Positions 8,913 to 64,000 of a DNA stretch of 64,000 nt are shown one piece after another (the first letter of the stretch is position 1; each line of letters begins with the position of its first letter). The stretch is from Hippasteria phrygiana (taxonomy: Eukaryota; Echinodermata; Asteroidea; Valvatida; Goniasteridae). A program made the position numbers and the translations under genes. The notes below the pieces were generated by a model that saw only the letters and a list, made by a program, of their open reading frames with translations, was not told the DNA's origin and made no database searches. The stretch is taken from contig JAZGUH010000152.1 in NCBI GenBank assembly GCA_037893225.1, forward strand, positions 496,001 through 560,000, written 5' to 3'.

Positions 8913-9184
8913 TGTTGTCCCGAGAGATTGTTTGGAAAAAATCACTCTGGTGGGACTCGTCGGTGAAGGGCAAAACCCAATATTAAATTCGCATTATACC
9001 GACGCAAAATTCCATCTGATGAATAGTTTGGCTGCGGTACATGCCGCTATATCTGATTTAAACCAGCCAACCTACTCCGACTAGCTCGGTGGTCGAGTGG
9101 TAAGACATCTGCACTAGAAAGCAGGAGGTCGTGGGTTCGAGTCCCACCCGAGTGATTTTTTCCAAACAATCTCTCGGGACAACA
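8913..9184. mobile_element. Foldback element whose arm contains a tRNA 3' half
   Basis: A 47-bp segment at 8913-8959 is repeated inverted at 9138-9184 with one mismatch. The right arm covers the T-arm and acceptor strand of the tRNA-like sequence 9083-9154. A direct repeat of about 64 bp (CGGTGAAGGGCAAAACCCAA near 8960, a CGGTGACGGG version near 9210) overlaps the structure. Copy B (about 53385-53520) keeps one arm and one direct-repeat unit, as expected if the middle was lost by recombination between the direct repeats. Confidence 0.7.
9083..9154 (+). other. tRNA-like sequence (Ser-AGA-like) with pol III boxes
   Basis: The A box TGGTCGAGTGG and B box GGTTCGAGTCC are both good. The T-arm is perfect (GTGGG, 7-nt loop, CCCAC). 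The acceptor stem pairs at six of seven positions including one G-U, and the first pair fails. The anticodon arm (TCTGC, ACTAGAAA, GCAGG) has an eight-base loop, and there is no long variable arm as a real tRNA-Ser would have. Because it sits in a foldback element and its 3' half is copied inverted, a tRNA-derived SINE or mobile tRNA pseudogene is more likely than a working tRNA. Confidence 0.6.
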
Positions 9185-17343: not shown

Positions 17344-18540
17344 ATGAATGCATCATACTCGGCTGTTGAAATGAGTCAAGGAGTAACAGACAGCGACGGA
17401 CTGACAGCCGACGAGAGCCAGTCAGTGGATTTTATGGATGTTCTACAAGCTCAACTGAGAGAACACTTAGACTTGTACAGGTTCCCCATTACAGTAATCG
17501 TACCAATCGGTCTTCTATTGAACTTCATCTTTCTGACTGCAGTGGCTCGGGTGAAATCCATGCGCACCAACATGAACGTCTACCTGTGCAATCTGGCTGT
17601 GGTTGACACCTCTATCCTCACTTTGAGTTTATCGAGAGCGTGGGTTCCAGTGGTTTACGGATCGGGGTGGTACTGGGCTCGTCAGGCTGCTGCTTGGTCA
17701 TTGGGTACGGCCTCTTACTGTATTGTGACCGCCATTGCAGTTGAGAGATTTCGTGCCGTATTCAGTCCAATCGAGTTTCGAGCTCAATCACGAAAGATTA
17801 GAGCGTACAAGATATCGGTTGGTATCTGGATTCTTGCAGTTACCACGGGTATCATTGGCGGACTACAGCCTGGCAGCAACTTCGGTTATTACTGGACAAT
17901 TTGTTATTTACCTTTCATTGCGTGCAATTTTGCAGCGACTCTTTGTTCGTATATCTACATTGTCGTACAAGTTCGCCGTCAAGTGGCTTTTTCACCGAAG
18001 AATAAGGGGCTACATTGGAAGGTTCTCCGCATGCTGGTGATCAACACTGCTGTGTTCTTTTTTCTGAGCTCTGTGCAAGTCATGTTATTTATAATATCGT
18101 TAATTTTGATGTCGATTGAGCTTCATGGACATCGATATTTTATGTTTGTCTGGGCAATACTCGACATGAGACTGATTCAAAGTATTCTGGCTGTGATTAA
18201 CAGTTCCGCAAACCCGATCGTGTATAGCATGACTAACGAGGACTACCGAGCCAACATATGGAAAGCGTTCCCCTTCCTCATCCGCGCTCTTCACTATCTC
18301 CTCCGCCCTCTGCGTCGTCGTCGTCGTCGTCGTCTCCGCCGCCAACGCCGCCACCGCCAGGCAGCCGCCGCCAATTCTCCATCGGAACTGGTAGAAATGG
18401 TGGAGATTCCCAAACGCGAAAGCCCGCCATTGAAAACGTCCCAAGAACTTGCCTCTGACAACAAGACTTTGAAGACAGAGGAGAAAGTCGTGCAGAAGCA
18501 GACAAGCGTTGAAGCGAAGGTTAGACCATTGACTTATTGA
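17344..18540 (+). CDS. Class A (rhodopsin-like) GPCR, copy A
   Basis: An intronless gene encoding 398 residues, a seven-helix plasma-membrane receptor. TM1 lies at about 45-70 (N60), TM2 77-100 (LAVVD, D88), TM3 112-138 ending in ERF (134-136, the DRY position), TM4 155-175 (W162), TM5 184-210, TM6 228-255 and TM7 270-296 with NPIVY (290-294). The tail carries an Arg cluster at 324-338, partly from a CGT repeat, then an acidic Ser/Glu-rich segment. The first in-frame ATG is 17344 (weak context); Met10 has a purine at -3 and is an alternative. It is atypical: no Cys at the usual TM3 start (counting from R135 it is Tyr110) and no Pro in TM6, so CWxP is absent. Ligand unknown; an orphan or peptide-type receptor is most likely. 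Confidence 0.85.
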   Translation: MNASYSAVEMSQGVTDSDGLTADESQSVDFMDVLQAQLREHLDLYRFPITVIVPIGLLLNFIFLTAVARVKSMRTNMNVYLCNLAVVDTSILTLSLSRAWVPVVYGSGWYWARQAAAWSLGTASYCIVTAIAVERFRAVFSPIEFRAQSRKIRAYKISVGIWILAVTTGIIGGLQPGSNFGYYWTICYLPFIACNFAATLCSYIYIVVQVRRQVAFSPKNKGLHWKVLRMLVINTAVFFFLSSVQVMLFIISLILMSIELHGHRYFMFVWAILDMRLIQSILAVINSSANPIVYSMTNEDYRANIWKAFPFLIRALHYLLRPLRRRRRRRLRRQRRHRQAAAANSPSELVEMVEIPKRESPPLKTSQELASDNKTLKTEEKVVQKQTSVEAKVRPLTY

Positions 18541-19834
18541 CCGTTTATACTCTTTTCACATGACGTCACCAGTCCATATTGGACCGCCTACTGTTGTATT
18601 ATGATGGTGGCGATTGTGTAGTGTAGGGCCCCTCTATTTTTTAGTTTTGATCAATATAGAGTCAAGGTTTTTTTTTCTCATGGCAAAATGACTTTTTCAA
18701 GCCAAAACAGACTTCTCTTAATTCTATTGACATTTTTGTTGTTGTAATTTTGAATAGTTTATTGCGGTAAAAAAATGCCATTTACTTATGCGCCTTAGGG
18801 CAGTTACCATGTGAATTAATGCGGTTTTGCGTGTTTGATGTGCATCGCATTGAGCGCCATCTATATTTTCGTGTTGCGTTTTGTCGTCTTTCCCTCAAAA
18901 ACTAAAACCCTGCCCTTTATCTACGGCATACCTGTTGGTTTGTAATGTCACTAACTAGTTTGGCAATTCCAATAAACCTAAAAGTAGATTTCTGTTCCCT
19001 TAGGAACAGGCCTAGCTGGGGCCCTACACTACACAATCGCCATTATGGTAATTTGAATAGTACTTATTGGAATAAACCAGTCCAGCATGCCACGTGGTTT
19101 AACCTGCCCCATACTGTACATGTACTACAAGGCGGTCCATACGTTGTTGCATTATTTATATCTGGCCACGTGGGTGAAAATGGTCTATACACAGTATTGC
19201 ATTTTCTTATAATTTTAAGTTTCTCCCAGATTTGGTTGTCAAGAATGGCATAAGTAAGGGTGTGTACTCAACTGAGGTGGGTGTCCCATTCAGATTTTTT
19301 TGAGAGACAAAAATATGGTCCAATTTGAGGCTCCAGTTTTACAATATTTCGTCATAGGTGAATTAGCTTTCAATTTCCTCCCAAACACAATTCATTTAGG
19401 AAATGTGTGCTCGCCAGTGTCTTAATAAATTGGACCCTAGTCTACGCCACTCTTTGTCGAGCAAGATTATTTGTACTTTTACTCGACAACTGTCGAAAAT
19501 ATTTAAGGCGGGAACATTTGTTTGTGTTTAAAAATATGACAATATACGTGGAGTATTTCTTCCCTTTGCTGGTATTAGGGGTGTGCATTCACCGGTAGTA
19601 TGGGAATCGGTACCCGATTGAAAAAAGCATGGGTACCCAGGTACGTGTTAAAGAAAGCCAATCCCAAAAAGTAAATCTTGGAAATTGATGTTTATATTGT
19701 TCGTAAAGGTCGGCATTTTTAATACTACCACATCGGTGCATCAATCAAAGTGGGCTCTATAGCTTTATGGTGTATGAATCACATTTGCTCAAGCATCATA
19801 AAATATGTGGTTTTCTTTTATTTCTAAATTGCAG
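18541..19834. other. GPCR 3' flank, no gene seen
   Basis: This AT-rich non-coding stretch matches copy C (from 18795 on, at 25790-26760) and copy B (63651 on). AATAAA at 18971-18976 could be a polyadenylation signal for the GPCR. At about 19576 begins TAGGGGTGTGCAT, the left end of the hAT-like element seen whole in copy C, here cut off near 19800. Confidence 0.5.
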
Positions 19835-22104: not shown

Positions 22105-22517
22105 GTAAGCTTGGCGTGCAAGCTTGCGGCAGGCTTGCAGGCAGGCAGGCTTGCAGGCAGGCTTGCAGGCTTGCAGGCTTGCAGGCAGGCAGGCAGGCTT
22201 GCAGGCTTGCAGGCAGGCAGGCAGCTAGGCTTGCAGGCAGGCAGCTAGGCTTGCAGGCAGGCAGCTAGGCTTGCAGGCAGGCAGCTAGGCTTGCAGGCAG
22301 GCAGCTAGGCTTGCAGGCAGGCAGCTAGGCTTGCAGGCAGGCAGCTAGGCTTGCAGGCAGGCAGCTAGGCTTGCAGGCAGGCAGCTAGGCTTGCAGGCAG
22401 GCAGCTAGGCTTGCAGGCAGGCAGCTAGGCTTGCAGGCAGGCAGGCTTGCAGGCAGGCTTGCAGGCAGGCAGGCTTGCAGGCAGGCAGGCTTGCAGGCAG
22501 GCAGGCTTGCAGGCAGG
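22105..22517. repeat. 20-bp minisatellite CTTGCAGGCAGGCAGCTAGG
   Basis: At 22210-22440 there are about eleven near-perfect 20-bp units; irregular CTTGCAGGCAGG words lie on both sides. The array ends exactly where the copy C homology begins (22518), so it marks the A/C junction. Confidence 0.93.
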
Positions 22518-25500
22518 TCGAATTTGGCAATAAAATGACATTACGAATACTACAAATTGATTGGGAGCGTAATCAAAGATAAATTGACAGAAATGTCGCA
22601 ATGTTTCTATAATTTATCTATAATTTATCTATTTTCTATAACTTTTCAAGATTTTGGGAAAAATATTTAAAACAATTTAAGTTCATAACCAATAAAATTA
22701 TAGTTGATCAAAGACATCTGAAATTACACATCTGACATCTTCATTCCATTCTCTATCTATTCGACAGTTTTAAAGGCAACTTATTTTTGACCTGCAAAAA
22801 TGACAAGGGGTACCCCCTTGCCATTTTTGTCGATTTTGGCCAAAAAATGACATTTTCCAATTTTACCAGAAATTGATTCCAGAGAACTGTGATAGTGGCA
22901 GAAACCCATTTGGAGTGATGAAATCATATCTGATAGGACAAAATTAAGTTTTTCAAGATTTTCGGAAAATATGAAAAATTTAAATGCATACCCAATAAAA
23001 TTATGGTTGATCCAAGACATATGAAATTTCACATCTGACATTCCGTTCTCTGTCCTTATTACATGTATCTTATCAATATAATTACATTAATGTATATATG
23101 TTGATATGTTACAACGTAATGTTATTAGACAGTTACTACTGTAAAATATTTTAAATTATTGCAACTGTTTTTATCGTGTACAGTATAAATTACTTTGATG
23201 TGTATTTTGCCTTACACATGGCACAGATAATAGATTTATAAAGCTTAAAGGTAGTATACACGATTTGCTTTTTGCTGTAATTTTCAGAAATAAATAGATT
23301 AGGGGGTTAGTATTTTATAGCGTGGTAGTAAATACTGTAACACTGACCTGTTTAAAGTTGTGTGTTTCTTGAAAACGACAGCACACCAGGTGCCACGATT
23401 TCACAGGATGCCTGAGACTGCTATGTACTTACAGTCTAGTACGGTATTTCGTAATAATTCAGTAGTTTTGTTTTTTGATGTTTGCAAATGGTGTATACTA
23501 TCTTTAATACCATCCATCTAATATATCTGTGCCTTCCTTGAAATAGAAAACCTGTGTGTTTACACTGAAACTACAGCAAGCTGAAAAGGTCGACTTTGTT
23601 GGATAACGGTAAAATAGAAAATTTGTTTTTGAAACCACTGATGCATGCATTGATATCTGATGGAAGAATTTCTCTGAGTGTTGTAGTACTTGTACTCATC
23701 GAGTTGACTATATTTTTACTACACGCATTCATCTGGGTCCAATTTCACGGAGCTGCTAAGCACACAGGTTTCCTTAGCACCAAAATGTCTTGCTTAGTTA
23801 AAACAGGTTACCAGCCAAAGGCCATGGCATTTTCATGCTTGGCAAACAACAGCCGATAAAAGGAATCCACGCCCCCATAAAAAAATCGTCACCCAGTTTC
23901 CCCCACCCCCACTGAAAATATCGCAAACGGAGAAAATAACAGTATTATTAAGAAAAATACTGTGAGTGCCCCCCACACTGTAACATCCACCTATGGAGTC
24001 AGCCTTGGCTACACAACTCCCCCCCCCCACCCCACCCCACCCACAGATTGTCTGTGTATACTTCATGACCAACTTTTAAGACTTTTTAAGAACAGTTAAG
24101 AATTAAGCGAATAAAATCTTACCTCATTTAATTTTTTGTTTTGTTTTGTTTTGTTTTGGGTTTTTTTGCTCACGAAATTAAAGTTTACATTGTCCAGAAT
24201 ACCGGAAGATTTCAAGCCGTATAATTGGGCAAGTCAGTTTCGAATTAGCCGCTTGATCTGTGTCACACTGTTTCCATGGTTACGGTGACGCGTGTGTAAA
24301 ATATAATGTATTTTCGAATTTCTTTCATTTTGTTGCAACTTTAAAAAGAACTGCGTCTTGAATTGTCTGTTAACACTATCATTTTAGTCTACAATATTTT
24401 TACGAAGTGGAATGATGGTAAACATGGCCGCTCGTGGAAAGCGTGCTGTTCCCTGACCAAAAAAAAACCACTTCTGAGCATCAAAATGTGTGGTTCAATG
24501 TGTTCTGACTAAAATTATGTCTGTACATTATACAGGGTGAGAGAAAAAAAACCGAACCCAATTTGTTCTGCACTGACAGGCCCCGATGGTGTCAACCATT
24601 AATGGCTTTATAATAATAAGTTTCTACATTGCACTAGTTTTACGCCTCAGTTCACAAGATTAATTTTTCGTTTAAATAAATGTAAGCGGAGTTTTCCGTT
24701 TAGGGAGCTCATGTAATATCTCATTGGAAAACTAATAATTTGTATACTGCTAGAAAATCAGCTATTTAATTTTAAAATGTTTCGGGTGCCATGAGCAAAA
24801 TGTGAGGACATAGCAACTGTAATCTTATTTTACGGTATTGGAAATTGGGGCCTCGTATGGGCCCTCCCCTCTCCCAGTCACAAAGTGGTAGGTATTTCCC
24901 TCACCCCACCCCTCCCACATCTACACATATGCAAACATGTGTGACATGTTATCAGCTTATTTGTTTCAACTTTATTGTCAAAACGGGTGAATCCGAGAAG
25001 TTTTGCGGGGCTTCGGAGGTAAAACAAAGTCTACAAATTTGCCAAACAAACTTGACCCCCAACACATTTCCCGTCGGTAAAATAATTTGAGAGGCGAGGG
25101 TGGGGTGGTTGGGAGGGGTGGGGGCTGGGTGGTGCTCTTCCTGTCGTTAATGGCGCCATGTAACCCCATAATCTCCCAGTAAATGCGCTATACTGGACAT
25201 GATGGAATCTTTTCTTACCCGTAAATTTTACCCACTAAATATAGAACCAAAGAACAGTGGCTGATTTGAGTCTATAAGCTGAACCCCCCAACCCCCCAAA
25301 AATGACACAGCAAGGGGGTTTAGACCCCTCCCCGAATCCGCCCCTGATTGTGTTTTTTCATCGACTTGTATCGAGAATTATGCGCCTGTTTCAATTTTTC
25401 TTTTTTGGTGAAAGAAAGAGGGAAAAAATAATTAATTCCCAGGGACCAGGAAATAGGTCAGAGATTTGTTCAGTTTAAGCATCTTCTACAGTGATACAGA

Positions 25501-26565
25501 AAGACCCCTGTAAAACGGAAAGACGTCTTTTTATCTATATACATCTACATACCATATACATTTTCCTATTGTTTATACAATGTACTTTAACTTTTTGGGA
25601 AAAACTTCATAGGTTTTGTACACTGGTTGATTTTGAAGGATTGAGGAAATGGGGAACATGCATCAGAACACAAGTCCTAAATTTTAGAGGAATTTGGAGG
25701 ATTGAGGGTGAATGCAACTTTTTTGGGGGAGCAATTGGAGGATTTTGAAGGATTGAGGAAGGTTCCTAGCCAAAAGGGCCTAGTGGGTTAGGCAGTTGCC
25801 ATGTGAATTAATGCGGTTTTGCGTGTTTGCTGTGCGTTGCAGTGATTGCCATCTTTATTTTCGTGTTGCATTTTGTCGTCTTTCCCTGAAAAACTAAAAC
25901 CCTGCCCTTTATCTACGGCATACCTGTTGGTTTGTAATGTCACTAACTATAGTTTGGCAATTCCAATAACCTAAAAGTAGATTTCTGTTCCCTTATAGGG
26001 AACAGGCCTGGGGCCCTACACTACACAATCGCCATTATGGCAATTCGAATAGTACTTATTGGAATAAACCAGTCCAGCATGCCACGTGGTTTAACCTGCC
26101 CCATACTGTACATGTACTACAAGGCGGTCCATACGTTGTTGCATTATTTATATCTGGCCACGTGGGTGACAATGGTCTATACACAGTATTGCATTTTCTT
26201 ATAATTTTAAGTTTCCCCAGATTTGGTTGTCAAGAATGGCATAAGTAAGGGTGTGTACTCAACTGAGGTGGGTGTGTCCCATTCAGATTTGTTTGAGAGA
26301 CAAAAATATGGTCCAATTTGAGGCTCCAGTTTTACAATATTTTGTCATAGGTGAAGCTTTCAATTTCCTCCCAAACACAATTCATTTAGGAAATGTGTGC
26401 TCGCCAGTGTCTTAATAAATTGGAGCCTAGTCTACGCTCTTTGTCGAGCAAGATTATTTGTACTTTTACTCAACAACTGTCGAAAATATTTAAGGCGGGA
26501 ACATTTGTTTGTGTTTAAAAATATGACAATATACGTGGAGTATTTCTTCCCTTTGCTGGTATTAG

Positions 26566-27073
26566 GGGTGTGCATTCACCGGTAGTATGGGAATCGGTAC
26601 CTGATTGAAAAAAAGCATGGGTACCCTGGTACGTGTTAAAGAAAGCCAATCCCAAAAAGTAAATCTTGGAAATTGATGTTTATATTGTTCGTAAAGGTCG
26701 GCATTTTTAATACTACCACATCGGTGCATCAATGCAGCAAGATGCAAGTGTGTACAGTGGGCTCTATAGCTTTATGGTGTAAATCGCATTTGCTCCAAAG
26801 CATCATACACATTAATATGTTTGGTTTTTCCCATGTATCCTGGTTTTCATTTTGAAAATTCCCCACAAATCACATTCAAAAACTTTCTCTTTCATTGTCC
26901 AGAAATTACTGAGTAACATGTTAATCCGGTTATGTGTACTTGATTGCATAATCTGGAACCGGTTCCTGACATAAGCGGCCAGGTACGGTTACCCGGTTAC
27001 CCGGTTACCGGTTAACCGGTTATCCAGTTACCAGTTACCCGGTTATCCGGTTCGATCGGATGCACAGCCCTAC
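26566..27073. mobile_element. hAT-like element with CCGGTTA repeats
   Basis: TAGGGGTGTGCAT at the left and ATGCACAGCCCTA at the right are inverted repeats with one mismatch. Just inside the right end are about eight CCGGTTA/CCGGTTACC words (26985-27055). No clear target duplication and no transposase. Copy A has only the left part (from about 19576). Confidence 0.5.
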
Positions 27074-34463: not shown

Positions 34464-35149
34464 TTTTTCTTGTACTAATGTGGTGTGGAGAATTTTATTT
34501 CAAGGGAAAACAATCCCGAGAACCTGTCTTTCAGCTCCAAGTACACAGAAACACTATGGCAGTTGTGGATTACGAACAAAATTGCCACGTGGCCAATTAA
34601 ATGCCATTTCTCAAAAAAGGGTTTTGGCTCCGTCTCCGGCCAGAGTGCCAGACCCTTCTGTTTTTGAAGCAAAGGTAAAGGCTAGCCTGTGACTTCCTAC
34701 AGACAGCAACAGCTCTGGTATAACCAGACCAAATCGTAGCCTATACATCCAGGGTAAAAACTCATGAAGGCCGAGCTCAAAGCCAAAGCTGATTGGGAAT
34801 AGCCTGAAACTGAAGGACAATGAGTAATTCTTTTTTCACTTTTGGCAACCACGACCACAGAGGTATGATCTTACAGGACCATTTGCACAATTTTTGTAAC
34901 TCATCCAAGATGAATTTCGTTACTGCTGAACGAATTCCGATATGTAAACAAGGTGTTCATATGCTTGTATATAAGGTAATTTTTTATTAAGATATATAAT
35001 ACATGCTCAAGGCACACATTACCATGATAAATCCCCCCAAATTTATTCTCCTTGGTTAGTTATCTAACCTATTTCCAAGGTCTGAGTGTAAAAATTCGAC
35101 CATAATGTGTTATAATACAGAGACATGTGGAAAAACCAAAATCATTGAC
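34464..35149. other. Non-coding spacer between the inverted repeat and the satellite
   Basis: No gene, repeat or RNA that I can support. Confidence 0.5.
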
Positions 35150-38100
35150 GTCCGAACATTCAGACTGGCACCGCACATAGTGCAGCCTGTACGCAACCAA
35201 AGCACCAAGGGCACCACTCTGAATTGACATCCAGTCATTCAGACTGGCGCCGCACATAGTGCATCCTGTACGCAACCAAAGCGCCAAGGGCACCACTCTG
35301 AATTGACATCCAGTCATTCAGACTGGCGCCGCACATATAGTGCATCCTGTACGCAACCAAAGCACCAAGGGCACCACTCCGAATTGACATCCAGTCATTC
35401 AGACTGGCACCGCACATAGTGCATCCTGTACGCAACCAAAGCACCAAGGGCACCACTCCGAATTGACATCCAGTCATTCAGACTGGCACCGCACATAGTG
35501 CATCCTGTACGCAACCAAAGCACCAAGGGCACCACTCTGAATTGACATCCAGTCATTCAGACTGGCGCCGCACATAGTGCATCCTGTACGCAACCAAAGC
35601 GCCAAGGGCACCACTCTGAATTGACATCCAGTCATTCAGACTGGTGCCGCACATAGTGCATCCTGTACGCAACCAAAGCGCCAAGGGCACCACTCTGAAT
35701 TGACATCCAGTCATTCAGACTGGTGCCGCACATAGTGCATCCTGTACGCAACCAAAGCGCCAAGGGCACCACTCTGAATTGACATCCAGTCATTCAGACT
35801 GGTGCCGCACATAGTGCATCCTGTATGCAACCAAAGCGCCAAGGGCACCGCTCTGAATTGACATCCAGTCATTCAGACTGGTGCCGCACATAGTGCATCC
35901 TGTATGCAACCAAAGCGCCAAGGGCACCGCTCTGAATTGACATCCAGTCATTCAGACTGGTGCCGCACATAGTGCATCCTGTATGCAACCAAAGCGCCAA
36001 GGGCACCGCTCTGAATTGACATCCAGTCATTCAGACTGGTGCCGCACATAGTGCATCCTGTACGCAACCAAAGCGCCAAGGGCACCGCTCTGAATTGACA
36101 TCCAGTCATTCAGACTGGTGCCGCACATAGTGCATCCTGTACGCAACCAAAGCGCCAAGGGCACCACTCTGAATTGACATCCAGTCATTCAGACTGGTGC
36201 CGCACATAGTGCATCCTGTACGCAACCAAAGCGCCAAGGGCACCACTCTGAATTGACATCCAGTCATTCAGACTGGTGCCGCACATAGTGCATCCTGTAC
36301 GCAACCAAAGCGCCAAGGGCACCACTCTGAATTGACATCCAGTCATTCAGACTGGTGCCGCACATAGTGCATCCTGTACGCAACCAAAGCGCCAAGGGCA
36401 CCACTCTGAATTGACATCCAGTCATTCAGACTGGCGCCGCACATAGTGCATCCTGTATGCAACCAAAGCGCCAAGGGCACCACTCTGAATTGACATCCAG
36501 TCATTCAGACTGGTGCCGCACATAGTGCATCCTGTACGCAACCAAAGCGCCAAGGGCACCACTCTGAATTGACATCCAGTCATTCAGACTGGTGCCGCAC
36601 ATAGTGCATCCTGTACGCAACCAAAGCGCCAAGGGCACCACTCCGAATTGACATCCAGTCATTCAGACTGGCGCCGCACATATAGTGCATCCTGTACGCA
36701 ACCAAAGCACCAAGGGCACCACTCCGAATTGACATCCAGTCATTCAGACTGGCACCGCACATAGTGCATCCTGTACGCAACCAAAGCACCAAGGGCACCA
36801 CTCTGAATTGACATCCAGTCATTCAGACTGGCGCCGCACATAGTGCATCCTGTACGCAACCAAAGCGCCAAGGGCACCACTCTGAATTGACATCCAGTCA
36901 TTCAGACTGGTGCCGCACATAGTGCATCCTGTACGCAACCAAAGCGCCAAGGGCACCACTCTGAATTGACATCCAGTCATTCAGACTGGTGCCGCACATA
37001 GTGCATCCTGTACGCAACCAAAGCGCCAAGGGCACCACTCTGAATTGACATCCAGTCATTCAGACTGGTGCCGCACATAGTGCATCCTGTACGCAACCAA
37101 AGCGCCAAGGGCACCACTCTGAATTGACATCCAGTCATTCAGACTGGTGCCGCACATAGTGCATCCTGTATGCAACCAAAGCGCCAAGGGCACCGCTCTG
37201 AATTGACATCCAGTCATTCAGACTGGTGCCGCACATAGTGCATCCTGTATGCAACCAAAGCGCCAAGGGCACCGCTCTGAATTGACATCCAGTCATTCAG
37301 ACTGGTGCCGCACATAGTGCATCCTGTATGCAACCAAAGCGCCAAGGGCACCGCTCTGAATTGACATCCAGTCATTCAGACTGGTGCCGCACATAGTGCA
37401 TCCTGTATGCAACCAAAGCGCCAAGGGCACCGCTCTGAATTGACATCCAGTCATTCAGACTGGTGCCGCACATAGTGCATCCTGTAGGCAACCAAAGCGC
37501 CAAGGGCACCGCTCTGAATTGACATCCAGTCATTCAGACTGGCGCCGCACATAGTGCATCCTGTACGCAACCAAAGCGCCAAGGGCACCGCTCTGAATTG
37601 ACATCCAGTCATTCAGACTGGCGCCGCACATAGTGCATCCTGTACGCAACCAAAGCGCCAAGGGCACCGCTCTGAATTGACATCCAGTCATTCAGACTGG
37701 CGCCGCACATAGTGCATCCTGTACGCAACCAAAGCGCCAAGGGCACCGCTCTGAATTGACATCCAGTCATTCAGACTGGCGCCGCACATAGTGCATGCTG
37801 TACGCAACCAAAGCGCCAAGGGCACCGCTCTGAATTGACATCCAGTCATTCAGACTGGCGCCGCACATAGTGCATCCTGTACGCAACCAAAGCGCCAAGG
37901 GCACCGCTCTGAATTGACATCCAGTCATTCAGACTGGCGCCGCACATAGTGCATCCTGTACGCAACCAAAGCGCCAAGGGCACCGCTCTGAATTGACATC
38001 CAGTCATTCAGACTGGCGCCGCACATAGTGCATCCTGTACGCAACCAAAGCGCCAAGGGCACCGCTCTGAATTGACATCCAGTCATTCAGACTGGCGCCG

Positions 38101-39416
38101 CACATAGTGCATCCTGTACGCAACCAAAGCGCCAAGGGCACCGCTCTGAATTGACATCCAGTCATTCAGACTGGCGCCGCACATAGTGCATCCTGTACGC
38201 AACCAAAGCGCCAAGGGCACCGCTCTGAATTGACATCCAGTCATTCAGACTGGTACCGCACATAGTGCATCCTGTACGCAACCAAAGCGCCAAGGGCACC
38301 GCTCTGAATTGACATCCAGTCATTCAGACTGGCGCCGCACATAGTGCATCCTGTATGCAACCAAAGCGCCAAGGGCACCGCTCTGAATTGACATCCAGTC
38401 ATTCAGACTGGCGCCGCACATAGTGCATCCTGTACGCAACCAAAGCGCCAAGGGCACCGCTCTGAATTGACATCCAGTCATTCAGACTGGCGCCGCACAT
38501 AGTGCATCCTGTATGCAACCAAAGCGCCAAGGGCACCGCTCTGAATTGACATCCAGTCATTCAGACTGGTGCCGCACATAGTGCATCCTGTACGCAACCA
38601 AAGCGCCAAGGGCACCCCTCTGAATTGACATCCAGTCATTCAGACTGGTGCCGCACATAGTGCATCCTGTACGCAACCAAAGCGCCAAGGGCACCACTCT
38701 GAATTGACATCCAGTCATTCAGACTGGTGCCGCACATAGTGCATCCTGTACGCAACCAAAGCGCCAAGGGCACCACTCTGAATTGACATCCAGTCATTCA
38801 GACTGGTGCCGCACATAGTGCATCCTGTACGCAACCAAAGCGCCAAGGGCACCACTCTGAATTGACATCCAGTCATTCAGACTGGTGCCGCACATAGTGC
38901 ATCCTGTACGCAACCAAAGCGCCAAGGGCACCACTCTGAATTGACATCCAGTCATTCAGACTGGCGCCGCACATAGTGCATCCTGTATGCAACCAAAGCG
39001 CCAAGGGCACCACTCTGAATTGACATCCAGTCATTCAGACTGGCGCCGCACATAGTGCATCCTGTATGCAACCAAAGCGCCAAGGGCACCACTCTGAATT
39101 GACATCCAGTCATTCAGACTGGTGCCGCACATAGTGCATCCTGTACGCAACCAAAGCGCCAAGGGCACCACTCTGAATTGACATCCAGTCATTCAGACTG
39201 GCGCCGCACATAGTGCATCCTGTATGCAACCAAAGCGCCAAGGGCACCACTCTGAATTGACATCCAGTCATTCAGACTGGCGCCGCACATAGTGCATCCT
39301 GTACGCAACCAAAGCGCCAAGGGCACCACTCTGAATTGACATCCAGTCATTCAGACTGGTGCCGCACATAGTGCATCCTGTACGCAACCAAAGCGCCAAG
39401 GGCACCTCTCTGAATT
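35150..39416. repeat. Satellite array, 54 monomers of 79 bp
   Basis: From the first CAGACTGG (35161) to the last (39352) is 4191 bp, exactly 51 steps of 79 plus 2 of 81. Each monomer contains CCAGTC-ATTCA-GACTGG, a 6-bp hairpin. Variation is confined to few sites: G(C/T/A)(G/A)CC after GACTGG, GTA(C/T)GC, AAGC(G/A)CC and CACC(A/G)CT(C/T)(T/C)G. The 2-bp TA insertion occurs at 35331 and 36676. Period 79 is not a multiple of 3, so the short minus-strand frames are repeat translations. The ends are sharp on both sides. Confidence 0.97.
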
Positions 39417-46570: not shown

Positions 46571-48187
46571 CTTGGAAAGCAGTTTTTTTACTGAAATGGA
46601 CTACCCTCTTTAAAGATGACATTAAATTAAAAATAATGATAATAAAACAAAATAATAATGAAAAAGAATGAAACTGCTGCAAACTGCTGACTCGACTGAA
46701 TGGACCCTGAAATATACAAATCAAAAAAATTAGCTGGCCTGACGTTCGAACTTAAGCAAGTCTCTTTCTCAAAGGTGAATGACAGAGTACAAGAAAACAA
46801 ACATGTAGGGAACGCACATGCATGAGGGGTTGGTGGAGAAACACAAAAGAGGGATGCAAAAGAGCATGGCAGATTGGCAGTGGTGGGTAAACATCAAAGG
46901 GAGAAGAAAGGACGGTAAACATCAAAGGGAGAAGAAAGGACAGCCAGGAAGACAGAAACAAAGAGGTGTGATTAGGGTAAGGATGAAGGAGGCGAGGGAT
47001 TAAGATGAAGGTTGAAGCTGGGGAAATGGACAAAGGAGTGTGGTTAGGGGGGGGGGGGGGGGGGGGGGGGGGGTTGAATTAAAGGTGGTAATAGGGCAAG
47101 AAAAGGAACAAAGAGAAGTGGCAAGGATAAACAGGAAATGGAAAGACAACACCATTTGGCCAAGAGACCCCAAGAGGGTTTTGCCAGGAGGATAATCTGT
47201 AAACAAATGACAATGGGGGAAAAATTTAAAGTTAATCATTCCCTTCCTGGATGTTGAGACCATGTGGTTGAATAGTCCGAAGACGTTTCATTCAAACTTT
47301 CTCTCGGCTGAGGCGAACTGAGTCCTTGCGGTGGCAAAGTGATTCTATGCCCTGTAGAATCATATCAGAAATGGAATGGTTAGGCAAGTTGAAGTGATGA
47401 CCAACAGGGGTGTCCATTTTCTTGGTGTTCACAGTCGACCGATGGCCATAGAAACGCTTTTTGAGCGTGTTCTTGGTCTCCCCGACATACTGGATACCAC
47501 AAACCCTGCAAGAAATGAGATATATGACATTAGAGGTGTTGCAAGTGATGTTGCCATTGGTTCTGTGAGTAGTTCCAGATGAATGGCCAGAAAAGGAGTC
47601 GGACTCCTGCATGTGAGTCTGGCAAACAACACACCTGGAATCGCACTTAAAAGTACCATGCTGTATGGGAGGGGATGCAGCCAAGGTGGGGACCTCGGCT
47701 CGAACAATCAGGTCTCGTAGATTGCGGGGGCGCCTATAAGTCAATACTGGGTTGTCAGGGGCGGCACGGGCAAGGCGATCTGAAGTATGAAGGATATGAT
47801 GGTTGTCGTTAGTTATTTTACGAAGGGGAGGCAGACTGGGATGAAAGGTGGTGACCAAGGGAATCTTGGGGTCGGCATTAGTGCTAGGCGTCTTTTTCTT
47901 GAGCGCCAAATCTCTGGTGATAGATTTGGCTCTGGCGATAGCACGTTGAACTTGGCGGGAGCTGTGGCCCCTGGCAACCAAGTTATTCTTCAGTACCTGT
48001 ACATGATGGGAAAAGTCAGAATTATTAGAACAAATCCTTCTGAGTCTAAGTGCCTGGCTGAATGCTATGCCTGTCTTGCAATGCCTGGGGTGACAGCTGG
48101 AGGAGTGGAGGTACTGGTGGGTGTCTGTGGGTTTAGAATACAGATCAGTGGTTACAAGATATACAAGTCAGAAAGGAGGATCACCAC
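46570..48187 (-). mobile_element. 5'-truncated Penelope-like retroelement
   Basis: The minus strand carries the C-terminal half of a Penelope-like protein (47232-48187) followed by about 660 bp of 3' sequence with a C27 tract (G run at 47047-47073). Near 46755 the minus strand reads GAGAAAGAGACTTGC..CGAACGTCAGG, like the 'GAAG..CGAAACGTC' motif common at such 3' ends. The 5' end is cut at about 48187, directly against the TTAA-element remnant of copy B. No full RT domain remains. Confidence 0.8.
47232..48187 (-). pseudogene. Penelope-like RT tail and GIY-YIG endonuclease, decayed
   Basis: Penelope-like elements encode a reverse transcriptase followed by a GIY-YIG endonuclease. Here the minus-strand frame from 48167 begins with the region just past the RT core (TDLYSKPTDTHQYLHSSSCH, then FSQALRLRRICS), continues with a CDSRCVVC cysteine cluster, and then the nuclease: VIYLISCRVCGIQYVGETKN (IY..YVG matching GIY..YIG) and LKKRFYGHR with the conserved Arg. 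An in-frame TGA at 48168-48170 and another at 47292-47294 interrupt it; after the second, the frame resumes to a natural-looking end (GLNIQEGND, stop at 47232-47234). The RT catalytic core is missing. The copy is dead. Confidence 0.82.
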
Positions 48188-60919: not shown

Positions 60920-62287
60920 ATGAATGCATCATACTCGGCTGTTGAAATGAGTCAAGGAGTAACAGACAGCGACGGACTGACAGCCGACGAGAGCCAGTCA
61001 GTGGATCTATGGGATGTTCTACAAGCTCAACAGAGAGAACACTTAGACTTGTACAGGTTCCCCGTTACAGTAATCGCACCAATCGGTATTCTGTTGAACT
61101 TCATCTTTCTGACTGCAGTGGCTCGGGTGAAATCCATGCGCACCAACATGAACGTCTACCTGTGCAATCTGGCTGTGGTTGACACCTCTTTCCTCACTTT
61201 GAAGTTATCGGCAGCGTGGGTTCCATTGGTTTACGGATCGGGGTGGTTCTGGGCTCGTCAGGCTGCTGGTTGGTCATTGCGTACGGCCTCTTACTGTATT
61301 GTGACCGCCATTGCAGTTGAGAGATTTCGTGCCGTATTCAGTCCAATCGAGTTTCGAGCTCAATCACGAAAGATTAGAGCGTACAAGATATCGGTTGGTA
61401 TCTGGATTCTTGCAGTTGCCACGGGTATCATTGGCGGACTACATCCTGGCAGCAACTTCGGTTATTACTGGGTAATTTGTTATTTATCTTTCATTGCGTG
61501 CAATTTTGCAGCGACTCTTTGTTCGTATATCTACATTGTCGTACAAGTTCGCCGTCAAGTGGCTTTTTCACCGAAGAATAAGGGGCTACATTGGAAGGTT
61601 CTCCGCATGCTGGTGATCAACACTGCTGTGTTCTTTTTTCTGAGCTCTGTGCAAGTCATGTTGTTTATAATATCGTTAATTAATATGTCGATTGAGCTTC
61701 ATGGACATCGACTTTTTATGTTCTTCTGGGTTTTACTAGACATAAAACTGATTAGAGGTCTTCTGGATGTGTTTAATAGTTCCGTAAACCCGATCGTGTA
61801 TAGTATGACTAACGAGGAGTACCGAGCCAACATATGGAAAGCGTTCCCCTTCCTCATCCGCGCTCTTCACTATCTCCTCCGCCCTCTGCGTCGTCGTCGT
61901 CGTCGTCGTCTCCGCCGCCAACGCCGCCACCGCCAGGCAGCCGCCGCCAATTCTCCATCGGAACTGGTAGAAATGGTGGAGATTCCCAAACGCGAAAGCC
62001 CGCCATTGAAAACGTCCCAAGAACTTGCCTCTGACAACAAGACTTTGAAGACAGAGGAGAAAGTCGTGCAGAAGCAGACAAGCTGTAACGGGATTAGCGT
62101 TACTTTACAGATTCGGATGACTATAAATGACTCGGGAGACCAAGACGATTATGTTGATTTACATACAATTACGAACTGGTTTAATCACACACATGATCAA
62201 CACATAGGAGCCATCTTGCCAACCAAGGCATGGCATTTCCCATCATGCACTTGTACAAAGTATGGAGTGCAAAAGGACAATAAATGA
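60920..62287 (+). CDS. Class A GPCR, copy B, with LTR-encoded C-terminus
   Basis: A paralogue of the receptor at 17344, intronless, 455 residues. Residues 1-388 align without gaps: ERF after TM3, W in TM4, NPIVY in TM7 and the Arg cluster are kept, and the TM3 Cys and TM6 Pro are again absent. TM5 has YLSF instead of YLPF. Substitutions cluster in TM1, ECL1, ECL2 and especially TM6-ECL3-TM7 (about 61680-61820), while TM3 and the cytoplasmic loops match. From residue 389 the frame enters the LTR at 62084 and reads 67 foreign residues (CNGISVTLQIRMTIND.. to GVQKDNK), replacing VEAKVRPLTY. The stop TGA directly follows an AATAAA in the LTR. It may be functional with an altered tail or on the way to loss. 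Confidence 0.8.
   Translation: MNASYSAVEMSQGVTDSDGLTADESQSVDLWDVLQAQQREHLDLYRFPVTVIAPIGILLNFIFLTAVARVKSMRTNMNVYLCNLAVVDTSFLTLKLSAAWVPLVYGSGWFWARQAAGWSLRTASYCIVTAIAVERFRAVFSPIEFRAQSRKIRAYKISVGIWILAVATGIIGGLHPGSNFGYYWVICYLSFIACNFAATLCSYIYIVVQVRRQVAFSPKNKGLHWKVLRMLVINTAVFFFLSSVQVMLFIISLINMSIELHGHRLFMFFWVLLDIKLIRGLLDVFNSSVNPIVYSMTNEEYRANIWKAFPFLIRALHYLLRPLRRRRRRRLRRQRRHRQAAAANSPSELVEMVEIPKRESPPLKTSQELASDNKTLKTEEKVVQKQTSCNGISVTLQIRMTINDSGDQDDYVDLHTITNWFNHTHDQHIGAILPTKAWHFPSCTCTKYGVQKDNK
62080..62083. other. Target-site duplication AAGC, left
   Basis: AAGC precedes the left LTR and recurs at 63647-63650. Copy A has a single AAGC at the same codons (CAGACAAGCGTTGAAG). Confidence 0.88.
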
Positions 62288-62321
62288 ATATGTACTCAGT
62301 ATGTACATTTATACCGCTACA
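62084..62321 (+). repeat. Left LTR, 238 bp
   Basis: TGTAACGG..CCGCTACA, with TATAAA at 62122-62127 and AATAAA at 62279-62284. Its first 204 bases are in frame with the GPCR. By eye identical to the right LTR. Orientation (plus) is inferred from the TATA and AATAAA order. Confidence 0.88.
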
Positions 62322-63408
62322 CTCCCCCCTCCTATGACGAGACGTGGGAGAATGAAAGTGGATTACATATCTCCAATAAACGATTACAATGTATGTAGTG
62401 TCATACTTTGTAGGATTGTACCCAAGATCATGAGCAAAGGTTCAAACAATGTTTTGTTCCATTTGTCCTATGTATAGAATCTGGTTCTATATATTAATCA
62501 AAATCAAAGTGTTCAAGTTCGGTTTCGGAGGATCCGAACTAAATCCAAACGGACATCAGCAAAATGTTCATTTAACACCAGTGATTTAGTGTTCACATCA
62601 AACGCTCATCTTGACAAATTATTAAACAGTCACAGTCACAAAATCAGAGTCATGGCAGATCAGCATCATCAGAATGATCTGATCATCAGCAGATCAGTCA
62701 CGTCATGGGTTGACATCGTTGGTGATTGGTTGGTTGGAAGGCGAGATGGGTCCCATGAGCTGACCAAGTTCAACAGTTCAAGGGGGCTTGAACAGGACGG
62801 TGCAGATGACGATCATCTTGACATCAACAGGAATACGAAGGGTAGGGGTAGATCAGACCACAGCAACACAGTCAGCGTGACGGGAACAAGGCACCGCGGG
62901 GGAACTCCTTGTTGTCACTCAGCAACACGAATAATGTCTCATCAGGTCATGTGAGAGTAAGGGAACTCCTCACGGGCGTGACGGGCGAGGTTTCTGGGGG
63001 AAACTCCTCTTGCCACAGGTAAACGCTACTCAGCAGCAGCAAAACGTGACGGGAACGTGGCACGTACGGAACGGCTTCCACGTTGTCACCAAAGTCGAAC
63101 ACAGAACAGTCTTGCGAGTCGAACTCACGTACCTATGTTGACGCGTGACTTGATCAACTGTCAACAATACAGCAGAGCAGACGAACTCGTTAACAATGTC
63201 CACAGCAACGTAAACAGATACTTGGAGAACCACAATTACAAGTAGCACAACAGCAGAGTTGAAGAACTTGCACACTGATCCAGTCAGTATGTGTGTTCAA
63301 AGCCGAACTCGCATATGCACGTGTGACATGGGTTTGCCGACACACACAGTTTACAACAGAATCGTCACAAATCTCAGGAATCACAAGTCATCCTGCCGAC
63401 TACGCCAG

Positions 63409-63646
63409 TGTAACGGGATTAGCGTTACTTTACAGATTCGGATGACTATAAATGACTCGGGAGACCAAGACGATTATGTTGATTTACATACAATTACGAA
63501 CTGGTTTAATCACACACATGATCAACACATAGGAGCCATCTTGCCAACCAAGGCATGGCATTTCCCATCATGCACTTGTACAAAGTATGGAGTGCAAAAG
63601 GACAATAAATGAATATGTACTCAGTATGTACATTTATACCGCTACA
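63409..63646 (+). repeat. Right LTR, 238 bp
   Basis: Same sequence as the left LTR, followed by AAGC and then the displaced end of the GPCR (GTTGAAGCGAAGG..). An open frame through it ends at the same in-LTR stop. Confidence 0.88.
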
Positions 63647-63650
63647 AAGC

Positions 63651-64000
63651 GTTGAAGCGAAGGTTAGACCATTGACTTATTGACCGTTTATACTCTTTTT
63701 CACATGACGTCACCAGTCCATATTGGACCGCCTACTGTTGTATTATGATGGTGGCGATTGTGTAGTGTAGGGCCCCTCTATAGTATAGTTTTGATCAATA
63801 TAGAGTCAAGGGTATTTTTTCTCATGGCAAAATGACTTTTTTAAGCCAAAACAGACTTCTCTTAATTCTATTGGCATTTTTTTTGTTCTAATTTTGAATA
63901 GTTTATTGCGGTAAAAAAATGCAATTTACTTAAATGCACTTTACGGCAGTTACCATGTGAATTAATGCGGTTTTGCGTGTTTGCTGTGCGTCGCAGTGAT
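63651..64000. other. Displaced 3' end and flank of the copy B GPCR
   Basis: It begins with the nine original last codons plus stop of the receptor (as at 18514-18540), no longer joined to the gene, and continues as the copy A 3' flank to the window edge. Confidence 0.75.

Follow-up and report, generated by a model that had tools for sequence, protein, structure and literature searches.

A 1.56-kb TRIM-like LTR retrotransposon has entered the coding exon of a chemoreceptor-like GPCR gene of the sea star Hippasteria phrygiana in antisense orientation, ten codons before the stop codon; the gene (here called copy B) belongs to a set of such genes arrayed in tandem and lies in the window analysed, that is, the whole stretch of 64,000 nt at positions 496,001 to 560,000 of contig JAZGUH010000152.1 (C152). 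We consider it probable that a non-autonomous element has exchanged the predicted tail of the receptor and that this exchange is neutral or mildly damaging. That mobile elements add coding sequence or polyadenylation signals to genes is well established and the kind of event is familiar; what copy B offers is a clean, recent case in which such an element has altered how a receptor ends. A literature search limited to top titles yielded no paper that describes a GPCR tail derived from an LTR.

The interrupted receptor gene and its predicted product

Copy B (60920..62287, plus strand) is a reading frame of 455 codons and a stop, composed of 388 receptor codons and 67 codons from the LTR. Its Pfam 7tm_1 match (E 5.7e-16), together with the receptor fold which Foldseek confirmed for the structural model, places it among the rhodopsin-type GPCRs; the best solved relatives of the first 388 codons are the neuromedin-U, TRH, and somatostatin receptors. 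The original prediction had a 238-bp LTR beginning in the codon after residue 388, and this is exactly what is found: the frame opened by the ATG at 60920 runs for 388 codons to 62083 and the LTR starts with codon 389. The LTR insertion is thus real, but the LTR is only one end of an element of 1,563 bp. The 67 open codons and a stop adjoining AATAAA, likewise predicted, are also present; the antisense reading of the LTR (62084..62284, plus strand) leads to the terminal codons GAC AAT AAA TGA, in which AATAAA (62279..62284, plus strand, the antisense strand of the LTR) supplies the codons for Asn-Lys and TGA (62285-62287) follows directly. In codons 122-166, 191-244, and 301-388 the amino acids of copy B are those of copy A, so that ahead of the insertion the receptor seems undamaged.

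Copy A (17344..18540, plus strand; 398 aa) is the paralogue in which the uninterrupted ending had been noticed, rightly: it terminates with VEAKVRPLTY and has the empty site after 18507. In copy B the same ten codons and their stop (33 nt; 63651..63683, plus strand) can be read by eye, intact, 3′ of the element. The predicted protein has therefore lost the conserved last ten residues and gained 67 new ones; the proposal of a gained tail holds in that the predicted C-terminus is changed, but it overlooked that the lost residues are conserved in the family. A search with copy A as the query and a cut-off of at least 80% identity gave 20 close family members, 11 on C152 and nine on five other contigs, and 19 of these 20 matches are without an internal stop. 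The native ending is kept in 17 of the 20, across two subfamilies (eight times exactly VEAKVRPLTY, once VEAKVRLLTY, and eight times VEAKVRPLTFL); the members without it are B, an identical copy B′, and C7, which carries a stop. Since the ending is common to 17 members, the insertion removes something conserved, and the conservation of the replaced residues favours damage or neutrality over gain; losing them may even do harm beyond mild. The 17 sister genes with the native ending are built-in controls for a direct test of what the tail does in such a receptor.

No Pfam domain was found in the 67-residue tail, and a word search of 5.8 billion proteins yielded no candidate homologue with three 5-residue words in common. 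The tail contains a YVDL, which we take to be a tyrosine-type motif, and a DSG, whose meaning we likewise assume; both are short enough to have arisen by chance. The structural model of copy B, computed from 20 sequences (the nine protein relatives, with 11 drawn from the 20 close family members), has a mean pLDDT of 61.6, with block means of about 61-90 in the helical core and values below 50 in residues 347-455. Because of these low values, that stretch, which comprises the shared part of the tail together with the new part, is probably disordered.

The inserted element and its family

The insert is a complete LTR element (62084-63646) lying antisense to copy B. AAGC is found on either side of it as a target-site duplication (62080..62083 and 63647..63650) and is present once at the empty site in copy A. 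LTR1 (62084..62321, minus strand) and LTR2 (63409..63646, minus strand) are identical in 238 of 238 bases, have the ends TG...CA (TGTA...TACA), and enclose an internal region of 1087 bp (62322..63408, minus strand). The primer-binding site (PBS) TGGCGTAGTCGGCAGGAT lies one base inside the 5′ LTR (63390..63407, minus strand) and the polypurine tract (PPT) AGGAGGGGGGAG abuts the 3′ LTR (62322..62333, minus strand). Because both can be read on the minus strand, CTGGCGTAGTCGGCAGGAT next to the 5′ LTR and the PPT next to the 3′ LTR, the element runs from right to left, against the gene, LTR1 being its 3′ and LTR2 its 5′ LTR. Two direct LTRs, a target-site duplication, and the placement of PBS and PPT identify it as an LTR retrotransposon, the PBS of which presumably pairs with tRNA-Ser at its 3′ end. 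Four of the 19 internal and junction frames were searched against Pfam, where nothing above the cut-off and no gag or pol domain was found; two sub-threshold matches (E 0.06-0.07) both fall in one of these four.

From its sequence, the element looks like a representative of a small family that is non-autonomous and resembles TRIMs (terminal-repeat retrotransposons in miniature) apart from its greater length. With TRIMs such as the bivalve biv-TRIM and the ant PbTRIM it shares direct terminal repeats of 100-250 bp, a PBS, a PPT, and a short interior in which no coding domain was found, as well as the occurrence of a tandem locus in the family (PMC6934838 for biv-TRIM). There are differences, too: biv-TRIM is described as having no clear PBS, whereas the element here has one, and TRIMs are limited to <1000 bp as opposed to the 1,563 bp found here (PMC6934838). 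It is this excess in length for which the element is termed TRIM-like and not filed as a TRIM. Animal Helenus elements resemble it in their 4-bp target-site duplication, PBS, and PPT; however, their LTRs are reported to contain a tRNA-like sequence and their length to be 311-1263 bp (PMC10886601), while the element here is longer and an Rfam search of 62084-63646 that admitted matches up to E = 5 yielded none. As no tRNA- or 5S-like sequence was found in this interval, the element stands apart from Helenus and Ajax, which are recognized by LTR sequence derived from tRNA or 5S RNA. Locust Kokol, which has a tRNA-Ser PBS and clusters with the Mag lineage of Ty3/Gypsy (PMC3391268), provides a lead only, no pol gene having been found in the element by which it could be placed.

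In the 944-Mb genome, 40 matches to the LTR were scored out of 62 candidates, and 34 other LTR copies were read at 21 other places. The PBS is at the same place in all 12 other paired loci, and LTR1 is followed by the CTCCCCCCTCC complement of the PPT in the seven of them whose LTR aligns end to end; six of these seven pairs have a 4-bp duplication, L047 being the one without. Four single LTRs also align end to end, two with a 4-bp duplication and two running into internal sequence. For ten copies (L048-L052, L056-L058, L060, and L061) the LTR alignment ends at base 212, so that the count of right ends and duplications refers to the remaining ones. Paired LTRs are spaced by 1.31-1.38 kb among the genome matches listed. 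One locus, L042 (C683:57192-60250), has the tandem form LTR-internal-LTR-internal-LTR.

The antisense frame is open for at least 67 codons in 26 of the 34 other LTR copies (the value of 80 codons for L056 extends into added flank), and AATAAA is present in 31 of the 34; hence, both traits are those of the LTR family. Under a first-order Markov model of the LTR, at least 67 open codons in that single frame occurred in 1.5% of the draws and AATAAA in 11%. The open frame is unusual, yet it is not special to copy B, and the 67-codon frame was rejected as a sign of selection on this gene, given the 26 other open copies and the 1.5% expected by chance for the single frame.

Transcript end, age, and consequences for copy B

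Because the element is antisense to the gene (PBS and PPT lie on the minus strand), the AATAAA at 62279 is not the polyadenylation signal of the LTR itself, and this candidate function was rejected; what remains of the new LTR signal first proposed is the hexamer as such, which could still work as a poly(A) signal from the antisense strand. Its best downstream 20-base T+G fraction is 0.55, as compared to 0.70 for a second AATAAA in the internal region of the element (62375..62380, plus strand), downstream of which the sequence is more T+G-rich. Copy A has its first two AATAAA at 18971 and 19071, with fractions of just 0.60 and 0.55, and by this measure 62279 is therefore neither favoured nor excluded; in the 64-kb window AATAAA occurs about once per kb per strand. 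A simple motif scan, which weak sites may escape, revealed no consensus splice donor at 61800-62320 and no acceptor at 62322-63750. The insertion sits inside an existing coding exon instead of having created one via splice sites, and the "exonisation" of the original prediction is the wrong term; its other half, that the event is very young, agrees with the identical LTRs, the AAGC duplication, and the empty site. In human introns, sense-oriented LTRs are depleted, poly(A) and splice signals being the suspected reason (PMC1794541), and by analogy the antisense orientation would be the better tolerated one. A B2 SINE in mouse Comt is comparable in that a recent mobile element gives a gene a premature poly(A) signal, but it occupies the 3′ UTR and was shown by 3′ RACE (PMC2923157), whereas here the site is in coding sequence and the case is made at the sequence level.

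The divergence of the two LTRs (0 of 238) has a 95% upper bound of 1.25%. The empty site in copy A means that the insertion is later than the split of A and B, between which there are 66 mismatches upstream of the gene (5,050 alignment columns) and 16 downstream of it (316 columns). The insertion is, as judged from these sequences, very recent, and the change in copy B is too young to show selection. In contrast to the 3′ flank with its 16 mismatches, the last 88 codons before the insertion (61820-62083 and, in copy A, 18244-18507) are identical in A and B, silent sites included, for which conversion or constraint could be the reason.

The same gene and element are found again, identical, at C152:1781632 onward (B′; frame 1781632-1782999). 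This second copy, at a distance of 1.22 Mb along the contig, is part of a 42.6-kb tract (C152:546412-588960 vs 1771133-1813756) that holds two receptors, B and C. Over 42,656 alignment columns the two versions of the tract show 54 mismatches and 29 gaps, none of which falls between 548809 and 573667 (about 24.9 kb), and the tract ends about 3.8 kb short of the contig end. It is conceivable, with a chance somewhat short of even, that the insertion is real but that B and B′ represent a single locus, recorded twice as haplotypes or as an assembly duplicate, and not two genes; the unchanged 24.9 kb and the nearness of the contig end are what would be expected then. The edges of the tract diverge, however, and C and its counterpart C′ within it differ by three bases; further, A, B, and C are themselves paralogues with 42-47 differences in the first 388 codons, and 11 copies are present on one contig. 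These differences and copies also led to rejection of the idea that A and B are mere alleles.

According to the scenario we favour, the element would have been primed by what we take to be tRNA-Ser and mobilised in trans by an autonomous partner, and the phase of its insertion happened to open the 67-codon LTR frame. If the mRNA is translated, the product would be an intact seven-helix receptor with its last ten residues exchanged for 67 probably disordered ones; the transcript might end at an AATAAA within the element (62279 or 62375) or at the native signals beyond it, which lie from C152:560117 onward and so a little past the end of the window. In a redundant array the core could still couple while tail-dependent trafficking or desensitisation would be altered, to go by GPCR tails in general. 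By this analogy, a neutral or mildly damaging consequence is the most likely one for copy B, and loss or neutrality is likelier than gain. The alternative that copy B is a dying gene, the product of which is unstable, mistrafficked, or poorly expressed owing to the lost ending, the disordered tail, and early poly(A) signals, appears unlikely but deserves to be taken seriously: large chemoreceptor families commonly hold pseudogenes, C7 of this family already carries a stop, and the lost 10-11 residues are still present in 17 of the 20 close members, spread over two subfamilies. Yet the frame of copy B has no other lesion, and its hypervariable and scaffold codons resemble those of the intact sisters.

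Quite improbable, in our estimation, is that the new tail is functional, that is, that it alters desensitisation or trafficking, was kept, and that the tailed gene was later duplicated to give B and B′. The identical tailed copy at C152:1781632-1782999 and the YVDL and DSG motifs, if their assumed meaning is correct and they are not due to chance, would fit; but B′ is part of a tract of which about 24.9 kb are unchanged, and thus no independent maintenance is demonstrated, the open frame is generic to the LTR, and the word search found no homologue of the tail. The boldest version, according to which a chemoreceptor gained a 67-residue regulatory tail in one recent step from an LTR in antisense, and a second locus already carries a copy of the tailed receptor, is very improbable; if true, it would constitute a natural receptor pair differing from its sisters in the tail as well as the pocket. 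The element might also act mainly as a promoter of antisense RNA, with its 3′ LTR (62321 to 62084) facing the GPCR and the RNA repressing copy B or its sisters. LTR promoters are known to drive readout into neighbouring host sequence, the orientation of the element is suitable, and TATAAA is found at LTR position 9 on the LTR's own strand; this hexamer is weak evidence, though, as the other strand has one too, and we regard such a role as improbable. The exchange of a predicted tail with neutral or mildly damaging effect remains the reading we prefer.

The receptor array and its hypervariable outer half

The receptor array, arguably more interesting than the tail insertion, may matter more. 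Nine protein relatives were found, of which seven are named, six from Patiria miniata (best 41% identity) and one from Acanthaster planci; the tandem array and the single-exon frame are those of echinoderm OR-like chemoreceptors. Among A, B, and C, any two sequences differ by amino acid in 29-31 codons, all within codons 29-300, and silently in 5-6. All 28 pairs formed by eight of the ten sequences of the C152 group have a dN higher than dS (means 0.040 and 0.022), C′ and the copy at 1497k having been left out as near-copies of C. Between the subfamilies, mean dN (0.078) is about equal to mean dS (0.077). Codon statistics are based on 17 of the 20 members (without C7 for its stop, C207 for its inner-start frame, and B′ for its identity to B): in the C152 group, amino-acid-variable outnumber silent-only codons by 53 to 4 in segments 29-57, 91-121, 167-190, and 245-289, as opposed to 8 to 10 elsewhere, and the second subfamily gives 49 to 1 in the four segments and 11 to 10 elsewhere. 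As the four segments were picked by eye from the same data, the Fisher values are descriptive. The inner half and the tail of the receptors (17344-18507, 60920-62083, and L027-L040) are nearly invariant, silent sites included.

If the N-terminus is taken as outside, the hypervariable segments would, on the structural model, fall in the outer loops and at the helix ends on the outer side; the pattern looks like diversification of the ligand pocket on a homogenised scaffold, and by its sequence the family of copy B looks like echinoderm chemoreceptors with hypervariable outer halves. The surreal-GPCRs of sea urchin, the ApORs of Acanthaster, and the OR-like genes of holothurians are likewise rhodopsin-type, tandemly arrayed, and expanded in a lineage-specific manner, the holothurian genes being mostly single-exon as well (PMC5442662, PMC7042368). 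In contrast, the closest relative found, in Patiria, is only 41% identical, and for the holothurian genes the holothurian study among these sources reports purifying selection, while dN > dS applies here. The family tree, which has 19 rows, omits C7, and includes B and B′ with their first 388 codons, is star-like within each subfamily, two of its 14 inner branches being starred and 11 drawn open, which leaves copy B with no close sister. The three bases by which C and C′ differ (C152:580194-580207, L014; C152:1804664-1805857, L024) change codons 91 and 95, both of them hypervariable, which suggests a very short conversion event or a change under selection; the coding sequence of C is found once more, identical, at 1496827.

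Elsewhere in the window, the repeat unit occurs a third time at 22516-26733, as a partial copy from which the receptor-gene stretch is missing. Tandem repeats with a unit length of about 79 bp, as estimated from the spacing of self-matches, form a long array over 35144-39416, and a tRNA-like sequence at 9083-9155, for which ARAGORN left the anticodon unresolved, could be a gene or the head of a SINE. On the minus strand, a frame of 229 codons (47292-47981) encodes a GIY-YIG domain (Pfam E 5e-05), presumably as in Penelope-like elements.
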